IMG/VR virus record: IMGVR_UViG_3300028569_000021
Span: 1 to 64,000 of that record
Reading direction: 5' to 3' (one strand)
From: a virus
DNA length: 64,000 bases
Below are positions 15,998 to 59,589 of the stretch, piece after piece. Under the pieces are notes generated by a model. That model made no database searches. It had not been told where the DNA came from and was given only the letters and a program-made list of their open reading frames with translations. The translations under genes and the position numbers were made by a program. Position 1 is the stretch's first letter, and every line of letters starts with the position of its first letter.

Positions 15998-17266
15998 TTA
16001 TTTTTTAGTTATTCTAGCTTCCTCTTGAGTATAACTATTAATTAAATTATTATATAACTCACCAAAAGGGTTAAAGTTTTCGTTACTGATAACCCTTACC
16101 ACATCTTGTTTATCTTGCAATGCAGCCATAAGAAAGTTTCTTGATTCTGCTATTAAACCTACAAGAGTAATAGTTACTTCATAAGCATCAGGTATAATTG
16201 TACTTATTGTTGTACTTCCACCCTGAATTGGTACTTCCATATTCATCTGACGTCTTGCACCTTTAAAATCAACCTTTAAATCCTTTATATAAGCAAAAGG
16301 CATATATTTTACACCAGGCACTGTAACTTCATAAAGACACGATGGATCAATGAGCTCCCTGCTTCTCCTATTGGGTCTGTTTTGATATGCGAGAAGAAAT
16401 ACTAGCTGCCAATTTAACCTTACATCCTCATATGTTGACCAACCTGTATTTATTAGAGGAAATTTTACTGTTAAAGAATCTCCATCTTCTTGAAAGTTAA
16501 AAAATTTAGGTCTTTCTATATATACCCCTGGTTCTGAAAAATTAGCAATTGCTGCTAAGTTCTCGGCGCCGCTTCTTATAGCGTCCATACCCCTGCTAGC
16601 TTTTCCACCCCCTAAGGCGCTATTGTCTGTTGCTGAAAAAAAGTTTGTTATATCATAACACCCATCATCAAAGTAAGGTAAATTATAAAAAAACTTTGTA
16701 TCTTCTGTTAAATATAACCCATCATATGCTTTTAATAAATCACTATTAAGACTATCAAAATTTTTAGATAATACATCTCTTAAATTACTATCTCCTGTAA
16801 GAACAGTCAATCCTCTATTAATAACTTGATTTTCAATAAAACCTAACCCCGCTGTACCAGCCTTAGAAAGAGATGGCCCAGCTATATCACTAAAAGCACC
16901 TAGATACCCCTTTATAGATTCATATGCCGGTCCACCTGCCGCCTGCACTCTAGGCAAAAGTGTACCAACAGAACCTGCTGATGAAGTTAAATAATAAGCA
17001 GCTGCTGCAATAATAGAATTTGTTCTAAGTCTTTTCTCTCTTAACTCTATCTTTGGTACCTCTTGTCTGGATTGAGAACCGGGAGGTGAAGTTGTCCATT
17101 GAAAATTGTTTACCACATCTATCATACCTGGCTGAAATCCAAGTAAGCTATCCTTAAAGATAAAATCATTACTATTTGTTGAAAGTTTAAAAGCATTAGA
17201 GGGCACAGCTCTAGGCGCGCCTGTTTTTGCGCTCTTTTGACTGTCGAATGAATATAAATTGCCCAT
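15998..17266 (-). CDS. gp48: Baseplate tail-tube cap protein, gp48-like
   Basis: 422 aa (T4 gp48 364 aa). The C-terminal half (about 240-400) has the tube-like domain: FPLINTG, VRLNWQLVFLLAYQNRPNRRSRELIDPSCLYEV, and YMPFAYIKDLKVDF then AYEVTITLVGL. The N-terminal half has a stretch of Ala/Gly-rich helix (about 85-160). In T4 gp48 and gp54 sit on the hub and start tube growth. The gene follows the coiled-coil gene (position of gp29) and precedes gp53, in one operon with 1-2 nt gaps. Identification rests on domain pattern and order. Confidence 0.65.
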   Translation of the reverse strand: MGNLYSFDSQKSAKTGAPRAVPSNAFKLSTNSNDFIFKDSLLGFQPGMIDVVNNFQWTTSPPGSQSRQEVPKIELREKRLRTNSIIAAAAYYLTSSAGSVGTLLPRVQAAGGPAYESIKGYLGAFSDIAGPSLSKAGTAGLGFIENQVINRGLTVLTGDSNLRDVLSKNFDSLNSDLLKAYDGLYLTEDTKFFYNLPYFDDGCYDITNFFSATDNSALGGGKASRGMDAIRSGAENLAAIANFSEPGVYIERPKFFNFQEDGDSLTVKFPLINTGWSTYEDVRLNWQLVFLLAYQNRPNRRSRELIDPSCLYEVTVPGVKYMPFAYIKDLKVDFKGARRQMNMEVPIQGGSTTISTIIPDAYEVTITLVGLIAESRNFLMAALQDKQDVVRVISNENFNPFGELYNNLINSYTQEEARITKK

Positions 17267-39015: not shown

Positions 39016-39891
39016 ATGAATAATGACATCCATAAAATTTTCGAAACTTATAGTAGACATAGGAACAATTTACTTAATGAAAACGTTCCCGTAGAAATAG
39101 AAGGAGGATATGGTGGCACAGGAGAAGAAGTAACTGCAGAATTTCCTGAATTATCTAAAGGTAAATATGATCTTTCTCCTGATGAAACAAAAGCTGTTTT
39201 TAGTAAGTTTTTTCAAAAATTTAGAAGTATGGGTGGAAGATCTCCAAAATTATATAAGGATTTTTATGAGATGGAGATAGGACCTGTAATAAGAGAAGTC
39301 AAGCCTTCCATTAATAATACAAATGCAAAGTATTCTTCAAGGGTTTTATACAATGCGTTGAAGGCTGCTAAAGTTTTAAGAGATGAAAGAGACGGTTTAA
39401 CATCAGGTGTAAAGTTAGAGAAAAAGCCTTCACCTGCTGGTGTTGAGAAACTAGCAGAATATACCTTTAAAAAAGCAGGTGAGTTAGGTAATACGGAAGA
39501 AGAGGAAACTGAAGGTATTACAGGACAGCAAGGCGAAGGTATCGATGATCCCGCAATGAAGCGCTTTTGGATTAAAATTCTTGATGAAGGTGACTATACA
39601 AGAGATGAATTAATAAGAATGTATATTGAAGATAATCCTGATGTGGATGATAATGATGCAAAAATGTCTATATCTTCTCTTATAAGCACAGGTTACTTAG
39701 TTAAATCCGGTACTAACCAGTTTAAAGCTGCAGACCCTGAGGAACAGTCGGATGAGAGAGAGGCTAAAGAAGGTGAAGGTACTGGTGAAATTACTTCAGG
39801 TTATGAAGATGAAGATGTCGCAGACATGGATAAGGATGAATGGGGCGGGGTTCATGTAGGTGGATGGCGCGGTGAAGGAGATATGAATTAA
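39016..39891 (+). CDS. Late protein with capsid-targeting-like leader
   Basis: 291 aa. The leader MNNDIHKIFETYSRHRNNLLNEN ends in L-L-N-E, a candidate gp21-type cleavage site. The middle has a helical domain (LSPDETKAVFSKFFQKFRSMGGRSPKLYKDFYEMEIGPVI) and a winged-helix-like segment (KRFWIKILDEGDYTRDELIRMYIEDNPDVDDNDAKMSISSLISTGYLVK, about 190-240). The C-terminal 50 residues are acidic and Gly-rich. It may be an internal head protein with DNA-binding ability. It converges with the amidotransferase gene (4-base overlap). Confidence 0.55.
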   Translation: MNNDIHKIFETYSRHRNNLLNENVPVEIEGGYGGTGEEVTAEFPELSKGKYDLSPDETKAVFSKFFQKFRSMGGRSPKLYKDFYEMEIGPVIREVKPSINNTNAKYSSRVLYNALKAAKVLRDERDGLTSGVKLEKKPSPAGVEKLAEYTFKKAGELGNTEEEETEGITGQQGEGIDDPAMKRFWIKILDEGDYTRDELIRMYIEDNPDVDDNDAKMSISSLISTGYLVKSGTNQFKAADPEEQSDEREAKEGEGTGEITSGYEDEDVADMDKDEWGGVHVGGWRGEGDMN

Positions 39892-40556
39892 ATAGTAAAA
39901 AACGGACTATCACATTCAAAGTCTGCAACTGCTGTAATACCTTCAGAAGTTACTTGAAAAAGTACACCTTCATCTAAACTCGATAGACCCTTATCCTGTA
40001 CTGAACTAAAAGTATTCTCATACACATCAGCGAATAAAGTGACCCCGCATTTTGCTAAAAAGGAATTACCTGTATTAGCATTAAACATCCATAAACCGAA
40101 AGTACCTTTTAGTAACTGAAGACAGTTAACAATAACATCAATTTCTGTATTTCTAGAACTAAATGTCTGCGTAGCATATAAAATATAAGGTATTATGCTG
40201 GTATCTACAGGGTTATTATAAGGCATCTCAAATTGATTGACAAGCTCTTTAAAATTTGTGAGTACTCCATTGTGAGCAACAACCCAATTCTCAACAATAA
40301 AGGGGTGTGTAGTATTAATATCAAATTTTCTTTGCGATGAAGTAGGTGCTTGAGCGTGACCCATATATAGATCAAATTTTTTCTTCTTAGGAAATCTATA
40401 CTGAGTCTTAATAACGTTCTGCATAGGTACTTTATGTATTTCAAAGCCGTCTCTATCAACAAATAAAGTACTGTGAGCAAAGTCACCTCTTTTAAGATTA
40501 AGCTTTTGTAAGTTTAAGTATTTTTCTCTTTTATTTGATCCAAATATCCCACACAT
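39888..40556 (-). CDS. Stand-alone class II glutamine amidotransferase
   Basis: 222 aa. The Ntn-hydrolase starts MCGIFG with nucleophile C2, then GHAQAPTSS (about 66-74) and WVVAHNGVLTNF (about 91-102), all typical of class II GATases. No synthase, AsnB or GlmS isomerase domain follows, so it must pass ammonia to a separate partner. It is the last gene of the operon uvsX-queC-heme oxygenase-bilin reductase-GAT. In Gat-QueC proteins a class II GATase is fused to QueC, so a split Gat plus QueC pair is possible here (inference). Other acceptors cannot be excluded. Confidence 0.85.
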   Translation of the reverse strand: MCGIFGSNKREKYLNLQKLNLKRGDFAHSTLFVDRDGFEIHKVPMQNVIKTQYRFPKKKKFDLYMGHAQAPTSSQRKFDINTTHPFIVENWVVAHNGVLTNFKELVNQFEMPYNNPVDTSIIPYILYATQTFSSRNTEIDVIVNCLQLLKGTFGLWMFNANTGNSFLAKCGVTLFADVYENTFSSVQDKGLSSLDEGVLFQVTSEGITAVADFECDSPFFTI

Positions 40557-40561
40557 TTTAA

Positions 40562-41224
40562 TTAGTTAGTCTCTTCAATTTCAGGGAACAGATATTTATT
40601 TAAGAATAATTTTGCATTGTCATCACCTATTTCATTTGCTAATGACTTAAATGTCTTATCATTTTTCTTTTGACCTACGCAATATCTATTTTGTATATTA
40701 ATGTTCTTTTGATATATTTTAGTATAGTAAGTAATATAATAAAGATAATTTTTTATAATAATATAAATTTGATTAAAAATATAATCTAATTCTTCCGCTT
40801 CTGGTGTAATACAAATAAAATCATCACTAAAAAAATTAGCCCATTCTGGTAAATTTCTGGTAGGTGACTTAATTTTACTTTTAAGATTTCTTAAGCTGGT
40901 TATATCAAATAAAGACAGTGATGTAGGTGTGAGATCAAAAAATATTCCTGTAATTTTATCCCCTAGAGCTATAACATCGAATCCTAAAATAGGTAAATCA
41001 ACATGTGAATTGGGAAAAATATTTGAATGCAACACACACATTTTATTAGTTTTATAATATTCAAGATGCACGTGCCTAGTAACATCAGTATTAAAAAAAT
41101 AATTTAACCATTCGTGTTCTTCTTTCTGAAAAGGTAGCTTCTTATTATCGAAGCTACCCATATAGTCAGAAAAAATATCAGCTAAATCGTTAAAATAGCC
41201 TTTAAGTAGATTGTGGGATTCCAT
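40562..41224 (-). CDS. Ferredoxin-dependent bilin reductase (PcyA/PebS/PcyX family)
   Basis: 220 aa from the ATG at 41224; I prefer it to the upstream Met (41260) because that extension is hydrophobic and overlaps the heme oxygenase end by 59 bases. The family core is VLHSNIFP ... HVDLPILGFDVIALGDKITGIFFDLTP. H66 and D83 match PcyA catalytic H88 and D105 with the same 17-residue spacing. These enzymes reduce biliverdin IX-alpha with electrons from ferredoxin to a phycobilin. It overlaps the heme oxygenase gene by 23 bases. Which bilin is made is not decided by the sequence; a PcyX-like phycoerythrobilin-forming enzyme from marine phages is plausible. Confidence 0.8.
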   Translation of the reverse strand: MESHNLLKGYFNDLADIFSDYMGSFDNKKLPFQKEEHEWLNYFFNTDVTRHVHLEYYKTNKMCVLHSNIFPNSHVDLPILGFDVIALGDKITGIFFDLTPTSLSLFDITSLRNLKSKIKSPTRNLPEWANFFSDDFICITPEAEELDYIFNQIYIIIKNYLYYITYYTKIYQKNINIQNRYCVGQKKNDKTFKSLANEIGDDNAKLFLNKYLFPEIEETN

Positions 41225-41798
41225 TATAAATTTGATCAAATAGAGTAACGTGAAACTCAAAAAAATTATTTACTTCTAATACAAAATCATCTTCACTAAC
41301 ATTGTCATTTGTAATATCAACAATTGCTCTTACATCACTAATAACATTTTGTGCATTATTATAAATGTACATTTGATTAAAAGGTGCAAGTTTTGTAGAT
41401 AGTAACCTACCGCCGTAAAGATCAGCTAACCACCTAACGTATAGGTCCGCTTTAAGCAAAGCAACTGGCTTAGACCAAGCTTTTGATACCCATTCCTCTG
41501 CAATTGCTAAAGGTTTTAACAAGTAAACATTGTCTTCATTAATATGCTTTCGAGTAAGTGTGATAATATCTTTAGAGATTGTCTGAGTCCTCCTTAAGTC
41601 AGAGTTTCTAAAGATATTTGCTGACAATAGTCTTTCCTCCACAGCACTATATGTAGGTCTCACATTAACAAGAAATTGTAAAAGTTGTCTTTCATCGTAT
41701 TTGCCACTAATAAAACTGGCCATCAGTGGATGATTTTCTGCTCTTTTATGTGATTCTGTTGTTTCTTCTTTAAGTCGTTGTTGCAATGTATTACTCAT
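41202..41798 (-). CDS. Heme oxygenase
   Basis: 198 aa. The proximal ligand is H17 in LKEETTESHKRAEN, and the distal helix has LADLYGGRLLS, like the GDLSGG motif of HO-1. The fold and length agree with bacterial/cyanophage heme oxygenases. It opens heme to biliverdin IX-alpha, CO and Fe(II), using seven electrons from ferredoxin or another reductant. Its product is the substrate of the bilin reductase encoded next, which overlaps its 3' end. No ferredoxin gene was seen in the window, so host electrons would be used. Confidence 0.9.
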   Translation of the reverse strand: MSNTLQQRLKEETTESHKRAENHPLMASFISGKYDERQLLQFLVNVRPTYSAVEERLLSANIFRNSDLRRTQTISKDIITLTRKHINEDNVYLLKPLAIAEEWVSKAWSKPVALLKADLYVRWLADLYGGRLLSTKLAPFNQMYIYNNAQNVISDVRAIVDITNDNVSEDDFVLEVNNFFEFHVTLFDQIYNGIPQST

Positions 41799-41802
41799 AT
41801 TT

Positions 41803-42540
41803 TTATATTAACTTACAGTTGTGTTTTTTCCACACACTATCTAAATTTTGTTTATATTCCATAGGATCAATCAACCCGGCATTAATAAATCCCTTAATTC
41901 TTAATGAGGATGAGGCTGATGAAGCGTCAGCAGGTAACTCACCTGAGTAACAAGTATATGTCTTATCAAATTTAACGCCAAGCTTTACTCCTTCCTTAAT
42001 AATATCAACCTTATCCATTTCAATTAAAGGCGCTATAACTTTAATACTCTTTTCTCTATTCAATTCTATAACAGAATTAAACCTATTAACAAACGTTTCT
42101 TCTGCATCCCAATATCCGGCAAGACTATCAATCTTAGTAGCACCATACCATACTTCCTCCGCACCTACAGTCTCTGCATAAGCACAGCACATACTTAAAA
42201 ACATTATATTTCTGAACGGTACGTAAGATTTTGGCTGTGCTTCACCCATCATATCTTTAATATTAGGTGTATCAATATTATCGTTAGTAAGAGAGCTAGT
42301 ACTAGCTAACTCTCTAATAGCAGTAACGTCAATTATTTTAAGTTGACCTGTTAAATTATTAAAGTCCGCTTGTTGTACTGCACATGTTTTTTCAATAATA
42401 TGTCTTTGACCATAGTCAAAAAACAAGGGATAAACATTATTATTACCTACTTGCTCTATTGCTTTCCACAATAGTACGGCACTATCCATACCACCTGAAA
42501 GCGTAACTACAATTTTTTTATTCTTCATCTTTTGTAACAT
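41803..42540 (-). CDS. queC: QueC-like 7-cyano-7-deazaguanine synthase with altered zinc site
   Basis: 245 aa. The N-type ATP pyrophosphatase loop is SGGMDS (15-20), with YGQRH, and YVPFRNIMFLSMCCAYAE and GATKIDSLAGYWD as in QueC. QueC makes preQ0 from carboxy-deazaguanine, ammonia and ATP. The zinc motif C-x7-C-x2-C-x2-C-x2-R keeps only the first Cys: the frame reads CYSG then ELPADASSASSSLR, so positions +8, +11 and +14 are Asp, Ser and Ser while the Arg at +17 is in register. Its start overlaps uvsX by 23 bases. FolE, which makes the pathway precursor, is at 55834; QueD and QueE were not seen. Confidence 0.8.
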   Translation of the reverse strand: MLQKMKNKKIVVTLSGGMDSAVLLWKAIEQVGNNNVYPLFFDYGQRHIIEKTCAVQQADFNNLTGQLKIIDVTAIRELASTSSLTNDNIDTPNIKDMMGEAQPKSYVPFRNIMFLSMCCAYAETVGAEEVWYGATKIDSLAGYWDAEETFVNRFNSVIELNREKSIKVIAPLIEMDKVDIIKEGVKLGVKFDKTYTCYSGELPADASSASSSLRIKGFINAGLIDPMEYKQNLDSVWKKHNCKLI

Positions 42541-43606
42541 CCTCTTTTACAGGTCCATGAGAATATTTGTATTTTTCCCCAAGAATTACCTCTAATTTAG
42601 GTAAAATAATATCCTCGTAGAATTTTTCATTAATAAAATTCTTTTTATAACCTAGCTTAGTACCATCAGGCATGGTGTAGGTAGATCCCGTTTGCATAAT
42701 AATACCATGATTGACAGCCATCTCAAACAAGCCTGAATACCTATCTAAACCTTTAAGAAAGTTAAGATAAAGAGAGGCTTCAAGAAATGGCGGTACAAAT
42801 CTATTTTTTACAGTTAGTGCTCTCAATGTTGCACCACTATAATTTTTTGCCTCAGGTAAGATTTCATCAGCATCGTCATTTTCAGCTTTTTCATTCTTCT
42901 TAGCTAGCTGCACAATTACCGAAGCCATATAAAGCGGTCCCGAACCGCCTGATTGATTCTTAATAAGTGACGGGTAGAGGGCTACAGGGTCTGCATAAGT
43001 ATGATTTGATATTAACACTGTAACCCCAGCTTGACCTGCTTTAAGAGTAAGAGTTCTCAAGAGACTCTTTATGCCTTTAGCTCTACTGCCCATATCTGCT
43101 GCTGCCTTATCCTTAAGCATATCTTGCTGTTCCTTTTCAGAAGAAAGATTACCAAGACTATCAATAGAAACTATAAATTTACCTTGTAGTTTATTTTCTA
43201 TAACCTTATCAAGAAATTTAGAGATAGAATTACGTAAACCTTCCACTGTATCAACAGGTATATACTTTGTCTTTTCCGGGTCTAATCCAACGTTAATAGC
43301 AGATTGTGAATCAACTGCAAACTCTGAATCAAAAATAACAGGATATATGCCTTGCTTCTGTGCAAGACCTAAGATCTTATTAATGAATAGGGTTTTACCA
43401 GTTCCAGTTTCACCCGCAAATATAATTACTCTACCCTTAGGTACCCCCCCGTCTTTAAGTTTGCCAGAAATAATTGCGTTAAGTGCGTATGAGCCTGTAT
43501 CATACCAAGTATCTACATTTGTAAGAGTGCTTTCCGAGAGATATGTAGCATAAGGATTCTCATCCAACACATCAAATACATCCTGCATTTTTTTATCTTT
43601 TTCCAT
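42518..43606 (-). CDS. uvsX: RecA-like recombinase, UvsX
   Basis: 362 aa (T4 UvsX 391 aa). Walker A GETGTGKT (65-72), then the RecA core with IPVIFDSEFAVDSQSA, SIDSLGNLSSEKE and VLISNHTYADP. It catalyses strand exchange in recombination-dependent replication with UvsY and gp32. It is the first gene of a five-gene operon and has a promoter TTGAAT-N16-TATATT-N6-ATG. A terminator for the previous unit lies just upstream. Confidence 0.93.
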   Translation of the reverse strand: MEKDKKMQDVFDVLDENPYATYLSESTLTNVDTWYDTGSYALNAIISGKLKDGGVPKGRVIIFAGETGTGKTLFINKILGLAQKQGIYPVIFDSEFAVDSQSAINVGLDPEKTKYIPVDTVEGLRNSISKFLDKVIENKLQGKFIVSIDSLGNLSSEKEQQDMLKDKAAADMGSRAKGIKSLLRTLTLKAGQAGVTVLISNHTYADPVALYPSLIKNQSGGSGPLYMASVIVQLAKKNEKAENDDADEILPEAKNYSGATLRALTVKNRFVPPFLEASLYLNFLKGLDRYSGLFEMAVNHGIIMQTGSTYTMPDGTKLGYKKNFINEKFYEDIILPKLEVILGEKYKYSHGPVKEDVTKDEE

Positions 43607-55833: not shown

Positions 55834-56481
55834 TTAAGTATTTTTCTTACTAAATTCTACAAATTTATAGAATTCCGCTCTAGAATTATCATTATTATCA
55901 AGAAATGCACCTGACATACGCGCAGTTCTCATAGTAGAGTCATGCTTAATGCCCCTGTTAGAACAACAGGAATGATTTGCTTCAATCAGTACTGCAACTC
56001 CATTATTCCTTTCACATACTTTATTGACATACTCATGGATTTGTGCTGTAAGGTTTTCTTGTACTTGCGGACGACGAGCAAACCAATCTACAATGCGATT
56101 TAGCTTAGACAATCCAATAACTTTACCCTTAGCGGAAGGTATGTATGCAACATGTGCAACGCCTGTAAAGGAAGCATGATGATGTGAGCATAAAGAAACT
56201 ACTTTAATGTTATTCTGACAAACTATACCATCATATTTGTCGACATTATCAAATGCTGTAACTTTTGGTGGCTCAGTATAACATCCCATGGCTAGATCAG
56301 TTACGAAGGCCTTTGCCACTCTCAAAGGGGTATTACTGCTATTAGGATCGTTTCTCCAGTCAAAACCAAGTGCATCAAGATATGCTTCATAAGCAATTGC
56401 GGCCCTTTCAATAAGATCAGTCGTCTCTTCTGGTGTATGGGGGTTGTTGTGATTGGCGTATGAAAGTTTCTTTTTAATCAT
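55834..56481 (-). CDS. folE: GTP cyclohydrolase I (FolE)
   Basis: 215 aa. Zinc/catalytic motifs: [39 protein letters not shown], and the C-terminal NHSCCSNRG, all as in bacterial FolE. It converts GTP to dihydroneopterin triphosphate, the first step to folate and to 7-deazaguanines (queuosine/preQ0 pathway). With QueC at 41803 it suggests a deazaguanine pathway in this phage, although QueD and QueE were not found here. It has its own host-type promoter TTGAAA-N16-TAAAAT-N6. Confidence 0.94.
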
Positions 56482-59022: not shown

Positions 59023-59055
59023 TTTTATAAATAAAAAAAGATCTTTGATAATTTG

Positions 59056-59495
59056 GGGGTGTACTGGTTTTCGATTTATAATTGAAACCTAAGAGTGCAT
59101 GCAGAGGTTAATCGATGGCCTCTATAAAAATCGATTAAAAACCTAAATGCAGAGGATAATACTTCTGATCTTTTAGCTGAAGCTGAATACATCATCAATC
59201 ACGCTGACGAGTTTCTCGTTGGTTGTGAAGATGAGTACGAACTCGCAGCCTAAAAGCCTAATAGAGGATCCTCTAAATCTATTTTGAAACGCAGAGGTTT
59301 TGATGAACTGTTAGAGATCATAGAAAAACTAATACAGAGGGAACATACGACCTGATCACGTATGTAGGCAGACTTTAAAAGATGGTCGATGAGCCAAGAC
59401 AGCCTTTAGTCAAAAAATGTCAAATTCATCTAAGCATGTAGTACCTTTTAGAAGATATTGTAAAGACAGGGGTTCGAATCCCCTCACCTCCACCA
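59056..59495 (+). ncRNA. ssrA: tmRNA (ssrA) with 34-residue tag
   Basis: The 5' end GGGGGTG pairs with CACCTCC before the encoded ACCA (59486-59495), including the G3-U70 alanine identity pair. The T arm is GGGGTTCGAATCCCC. The resume codon is GCA at 59149, preceded by TAAAT as expected for a tmRNA. The tag frame runs from 59149 to the TAA at 59251-59253, beginning AEDNTSDLLAEAE and ending CEDEYELAA: 34 residues, far longer than the 8-15 typical of bacterial tags. It is a one-piece tmRNA with CCA encoded. It would rescue ribosomes stalled on broken mRNAs and tag the products for proteolysis, perhaps with altered specificity. Confidence 0.92.
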
Positions 59496-59499
59496 ATTT

Positions 59500-59589
59500 G
59501 GAACGATGGCTGAGCGGCCGAAGGCAGAGCTTTGCTAAAGCTCCGAGGACTAAAAACCTCCGAAGGTTCAAATCCTTCTCGTTCCGCCA
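59500..59589 (+). tRNA. tRNA-Ser (anticodon GCU)
   Basis: A 90-nt class II tRNA. Acceptor GGAACGA pairs with TCGTTCC, followed by G and encoded CCA (59587-59589). The anticodon loop TTGCTAA (stem GAGCT/AGCTC) gives GCT, which reads AGC/AGU. A long variable arm (GAGG ... CCTC) marks serine. The T arm is GAAGGTTCAAATCCTTC. It lies 4 nt after the tmRNA, so both are probably processed from one transcript. AGU is a common Ser codon in this AT-rich genome, so it may support late gene translation. Confidence 0.95.

Follow-up and report, generated by a model that had tools for sequence, protein, structure and literature searches.

The 64,000-nt stretch of viral DNA analysed here (the window), which opens the 93.8-kb IMG/VR record IMGVR_UViG_3300028569_000021, carries on its minus strand a row of genes headed by a uvsX-like recombinase (42518..43606; PHROG 97, E 5.8e-57) and continuing with queC (41803..42540; Pfam QueC, E 1.6e-49), an HO-1-like heme oxygenase (HO) of 198 aa (41202..41798), a ferredoxin-dependent bilin reductase (FDBR) of 220 aa (40562..41224) and a single-domain glutamine amidotransferase (GATase, 39888..40556; Pfam GATase_6, 28.4 bits against a cut-off of 27). 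queC and the GATase gene form the left and right borders of the inserted pair, and the ORF coordinates place the start of the FDBR within the end of the HO by 23 nt (41202..41224), from which we infer translational coupling. The first-pass annotation of this DNA had described two overlapping genes for HO and FDBR at 40562-41798, in the uvsX row and apart from photosystem genes. This description holds in each respect: both products match their Pfam families, the pair shares the strand of uvsX and queC and lies downstream of them, and no psbA was found in the record.

The HO matches the Pfam Heme_oxygenase profile (PF01126) with an E value of 1.1e-13 (52 bits, cut-off 23), and its proximal His17, reported earlier as conserved, is invariant among the 31 HOs aligned. 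An AlphaFold model with an alignment of relatives as input reached a mean pLDDT of 94.6, and its Foldseek matches in the PDB are heme oxygenases (HmuO, HO-1 and HO-2); the protein has both the proximal His and the fold of HO-1-type enzymes. The distal helix reads WLADLYGGR, with ADLYGG where most HOs have GDLSGG, so that Ala stands for the first Gly whilst the Asp and the two later Gly are kept. This variant occurs throughout the closest clade and is a caveat for the predicted HO activity.

The FDBR matches the Pfam Fe_bilin_red profile (PF05996; E 5.6e-20, 72 bits, cut-off 31) and also a PHROG that is classed among auxiliary metabolic genes. Its AlphaFold model, likewise with an alignment of relatives as input, has a mean pLDDT of 93.0 and PcyA structures as its top PDB matches; the 46 matches with E <= 0.001 are all FDBRs, the PcyA chain of a chloroplast motor complex or the related RCCR, and they include 3i95, the crystal structure of E76Q PcyA. 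By profile and by fold the protein is an FDBR, and chance is excluded as the source of the HO and FDBR matches. The TTG at 41260 given in the ORF list is an unlikely start, and the ATG at 41224 is likely the true one. This start yields the numbering H66 and D83, with the 17-residue spacing of PcyA H88/D105 noted in the first pass, as well as the 23-nt overlap with HO; both residues are invariant in the 41 FDBRs aligned. The families, folds and catalytic residues thus agree with the steps proposed at the outset, in which the two proteins would convert heme to biliverdin and biliverdin to a phycobilin.

In order to compare active sites we aligned 150 FDBRs and used Synechocystis PcyA numbering. 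Window residues E55, H66, D83, Y181, N188, K190 and T191 correspond to PcyA E76, H88, D105, Y212, N219, K221 and T222, so that the PcyA residues Glu76, His88 and Asp105 all have their counterparts, and the further active-site residues H74, Y212, N219, K221 and T222 are all kept. Across PcyA columns 76, 88, 105, 212 and 218-221 the window reads EHDYKNDK, as do all 49 fetched bacterial sequences, nearly all of them from named cyanobacteria. The 34 PcyX-clade sequences, including the PDB entry 5owg and that of pelagiphage Mosig, all read DHDYKNPH, with Asp at the Glu76 column and Pro-His at 220/221 where the window has Glu55 and Asp189-Lys190 (in 5owg the Asp corresponds to Asp55, since eight extra residues open the PDB chain). 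Glu55, the third catalytic residue, had not figured in the earlier reading and decides between PcyA and PcyX. Glu76 is PcyA-specific, absent in PcyX and pre-PcyA, and required for 18-vinyl reduction (Rockwell et al. 2023, PMC10151467), and a freshwater phage enzyme makes phycocyanobilin (PCB), likely through the absence of the PcyX Asp55 (Wegner et al. 2024, PMC11480375). The predicted product of the window FDBR is accordingly PCB and not phycoerythrobilin (PEB). The second shell differs from that of cyanobacterial and cyanophage PcyA, which keep Tyr238 and Val/Ile225: PcyA Val225 is replaced by Ser194, and Phe207 stands in the column of Tyr238, the hydrogen-bond partner that contacts Glu76 in PcyA (PMC9800206). 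Because of these two differences the exact bilin could be another one, and the product call is a prediction.

A maximum-likelihood FDBR tree of 76 rows pairs the window with one phage relative, L002 (support 100/99), nested within 10 rows (100/99) and then within a 13-row phage clade (99/97). The sister of that clade is a set in which PcyX is joined by long branches and by sequences of the intermediate type EHDYKNPH, and 28 rows come together as an HO-linked phage PcyA/PcyX branch (100/100). PcyX forms a single clade that leaves the window out (96/95), and cyanophage PcyA does not group with the window FDBR. Since long branches meet at some of the deep joins, the order of these is less certain than the position of the window outside PcyX. 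Amongst bacteria, an alignment scan recovered 49 FDBR loci, nearly all from named cyanobacteria and 23-32% identical to the window protein; a single-sequence scan of genome contigs found no bacterial relatives, and no FDBR relatives were found on plasmids. A further HO-FDBR group (L085-L088, L090-L093), lying between PcyA and PcyX, has Glu76 with Pro-His at 220/221, and its HOs carry Trp in place of the catalytic Asp of GDxxGG. Three other loci (L009, L010 and L011) have a divergent FDBR on a very long branch, in which Ser occupies the Glu76 column and Glu-Arg fills 220/221; the adjacent HO reads GMMFGG and so lacks the distal Asp.

Within the closest FDBR clade (n = 11) the Glu76 column holds Glu in six sequences and Gln in five, encoded by GAA, CAA and CAG. 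When this column is left out of the tree, the two residues must have been exchanged at least three times, whilst H88, D105, Y212, N219, K221 and T222 are invariant. L004, with Glu, and L005, with Gln, form a sister pair; at the level of sequence such an exchange is a natural E76Q.

The FDBR lies immediately downstream of the HO in nearly all HO-linked relatives, and over 56 pairs the HO and FDBR distances are correlated with a rho of 0.81, a value reached in 0 of 2000 permutations. In four phages (the window, L002, L003 and L078) the pair is flanked by queC and the GATase gene; in L004 and L008 it adjoins the DNA polymerase, and in L005 and L007 a very long ORF. We also collected 21 related loci with a uvsX 60-70% alike to that of the window phage and long enough to show both borders, and neither HO nor FDBR was present between queC and the GATase gene in any of them. 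The gap between the two borders is about 3 nt in 19 of these loci and about 560 nt in the other two (L189 and L190). This pattern of presence and absence indicates that HO and FDBR entered or left this site together, as a single block. QueC and FolE, together with a protein resembling QueD and another that is probably QueE (window 41803-42540 and 55834-56481; L012:11286-12068 and L012:12934-13551), likely make up a preQ0 route, which would suggest 7-deazaguanine-modified phage DNA. A one-piece tmRNA gene (window 59055-59589, plus strand; Rfam RF00023, 120 bits) adjoins a tRNA-Ser(gct), and its predicted tag is long (EAEYIINHADEFLVGCEDEYELAA). As judged by eye, about 20 proteins start with a short F/Y...L.E-type segment similar to the capsid-targeting sequence of T4 (such as MKFFNIFKSVFEDKS and VQSFKQYIYENIL; window 26879, 39016, 53692 and 56527 and many more ORF starts of the record), and the phage would then have many proteins inside its virion.

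Translation-initiation signals and a few genes point to a host in the Bacteroidota, which we consider probable. Shine-Dalgarno-like motifs precede 6 of the 87 genes of the 93.8-kb record, about as many as in shuffled sequence, and the start regions are A-rich at -3, -6 and -9 to -11 and depleted in G at -8 to -12. Bacteroidota lack Shine-Dalgarno sequences and have A at -3 and -6 instead (PMC6847099). Two Bacteroidota phage controls gave 5/76, like the window, whereas the pelagiphage, PcyX-phage and alphaproteobacterial-phage controls, unlike the window phage and its clade, have Shine-Dalgarno signals (31/45 in Mosig, 49/95 in PcyX-clade contigs); contigs of the EHDYKNPH group together with L089 gave 24/49. 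Cyanophage P-RSM1 is also low (7/39, p 0.11) but has a G peak at -10. The best FolE matches, at 47-57% and above all others, are to Flavobacterium, Cellulophaga and Chryseobacterium phages, and the QueE matches are partly to Cellulophaga. Other gene matches are mixed, those of QueC, QueD and the lysin not pointing to Bacteroidota and those of TerL and the polymerase (about 30-38%; Rhizobium, Caulobacter, Sinorhizobium, Pseudoalteromonas, Synechococcus and other phages) being uninformative on the host; the ORF at 15998-17266 gave no match. The Bacteroidota promoter motif TAnnTTTG occurs 172 times against 144 expected and the two-part motif at chance, which does not support a Bacteroidota host. 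The window phage comes from an aquatic sample, and going by IMG sample numbers its close relatives may be of freshwater origin.

Taken together, the reading that we favour, at a probability of roughly 60%, is that a T4-like phage lineage probably infecting Bacteroidota carries, between queC and the GATase gene, a two-gene cassette for the conversion of heme to the blue pigment PCB. The activities, product, host and benefit that we infer are as follows: HO would open host heme to biliverdin IXalpha with release of iron and CO, and the PcyA-type FDBR would reduce biliverdin by four electrons to PCB. Host ferredoxin would donate the electrons, as a search of the 93.8-kb record (itself incomplete) found no Fer2 protein, which extends to the whole record the earlier remark that the window lacks a ferredoxin. 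The cassette may serve to obtain iron through the turnover of heme, the FDBR drawing biliverdin off HO. No match to AlaS (TIGR01821) was found in the window record or in nine relatives, all incomplete records, so the three-gene hemO-FDBR-valaS phage cassette is not seen in them. A search for pmoC gave no match, but neither did its control, so that this result carries no information.

The earlier note had likened the pair to the PcyX-type genes of uncultured marine phages, in which case the FDBR would turn biliverdin into PEB as in pelagiphage-like phages. A wider kinship stands, given the shared HO-linked branch, the overlapping hemO-FDBR order and the Phe that PcyX and the window have in common at the Tyr238 column. 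The type does not: Glu55 and Asp-Lys at 220/221, the position outside the PcyX clade, an identity of about 29% to the PcyX-type FDBR of Mosig, nearest relatives other than the marine PcyX/pelagiphage set and the missing Shine-Dalgarno signals make a PcyX enzyme very improbable. It is somewhat less unlikely that a PcyA-like protein makes another bilin (phytochromobilin, 18EtBV or a mixture) owing to its second shell. Phe207, Ser194 and the recurrent Gln in the closest clade speak for such a product, whilst in the window Glu and the remaining catalytic set are intact, and PCB is the product of a phage enzyme that lacks Asp55 (PMC11480375).

Two further explanations accept the chemistry and differ in its use. 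Cyanophages are known to carry HO and PcyA, and P-RSM1 shares the scarcity of Shine-Dalgarno sites, so the pair might supply host phycobilisomes during infection. We regard this as improbable, given the separation from cyanophage PcyA in the tree, the G depletion that P-RSM1 does not share and a FolE nearest to those of Bacteroidota phages. In addition, neither psbA nor a phycobiliprotein was found in the ten pair-carrying phage records, which include ones of 176 and 225 kb. The bilin could instead serve a photoreceptor or bilin-binding globin of the host as its specific chromophore and be no by-product of heme turnover, which is the most serious of these alternatives though still doubtful. 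It would account for an FDBR retained with HO in nearly every HO-linked relative, as if the reduced bilin mattered, and the PCB of the freshwater phage CB_2 loads a phytochrome (PMC11480375); against it stand the ten phage records, in which neither a GAF photoreceptor above cut-off nor a phycobiliprotein was found, and the recurrent Gln at a residue required for PCB. The constant pairing implies that the FDBR matters, and the repeated Gln that its product may not need to be PCB in particular. Given this recurrent loss, among sister phages, of a residue on which PCB formation depends, we lean, without strong confidence, towards heme turnover with biliverdin removal over one exact chromophore.

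Phage HO-FDBR pairs have been published before, as HO-PcyX in marine phages and as HO-PcyA (vHemO and vPcyA) in freshwater phage CB_2 (PMC11480375). CB_2, which we compared by description and outside the tree, resembles the window in having an HO and an FDBR without the PcyX Asp55. It differs in that its PCB was shown by assay, that of the window being predicted from sequence, in the presence of valaS nearby and in its proposed alphaproteobacterial host, against the Bacteroidota-like initiation signal seen here. The PcyX phages (EBK42635, PDB 5owg; Pelagibacter phage Mosig) are likewise T4-like, infect non-cyanobacterial hosts and fall in the same larger branch; unlike the window phage they are rich in Shine-Dalgarno sites and their enzyme makes PEB. 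Mosig (L195, 2701-3027 and 39650-43977) also has, besides PcyX, its own 2Fe-2S ferredoxin, by which it may bring its own electron donor, and a ferrochelatase. Cyanobacterial PcyA shares the catalytic signature with the window, but cyanobacterial and cyanophage PcyA are about 22-32% identical to the window FDBR; as for cyanophage PcyA, its hosts are photosynthetic and the fetched loci show no adjacent HO. The alphaproteobacterial PcyA of the AX clade (Bradyrhizobium ORS278) is, like that of the window, a non-cyanobacterial PcyA beside an HO but lies on a chromosomal island with a phytochrome and alaS (Rockwell et al. 2023, PMC10151467), and its relation to the window is judged from that description. 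Three points are new as far as the literature was searched: a phage group that probably infects Bacteroidota, a cassette that is present or absent as a unit at the junction of queC and the GATase gene, and the natural variation between Glu and Gln at the Glu76 column.

Why non-cyanobacterial phages keep HO-FDBR pairs is the question that these genomes address: the pair comes and goes as a unit between the same two genes, providing matched genomes of close relatives with and without it, and the probable host group indicates where its benefit should be sought. Natural Glu/Gln pairs such as L004 and L005 make the effect of an active-site residue on the bilin product directly testable. We suggest tentatively that T4-like phages of heterotrophic Bacteroidota, to our knowledge not a phylum known for phycobilin use, make bilins from host heme, and that sister phages switch product by repeated Glu/Gln exchange at the residue directing 18-vinyl reduction. 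If true, this would establish phage bilin synthesis in Bacteroidota and a natural series for the study of FDBR regiospecificity.
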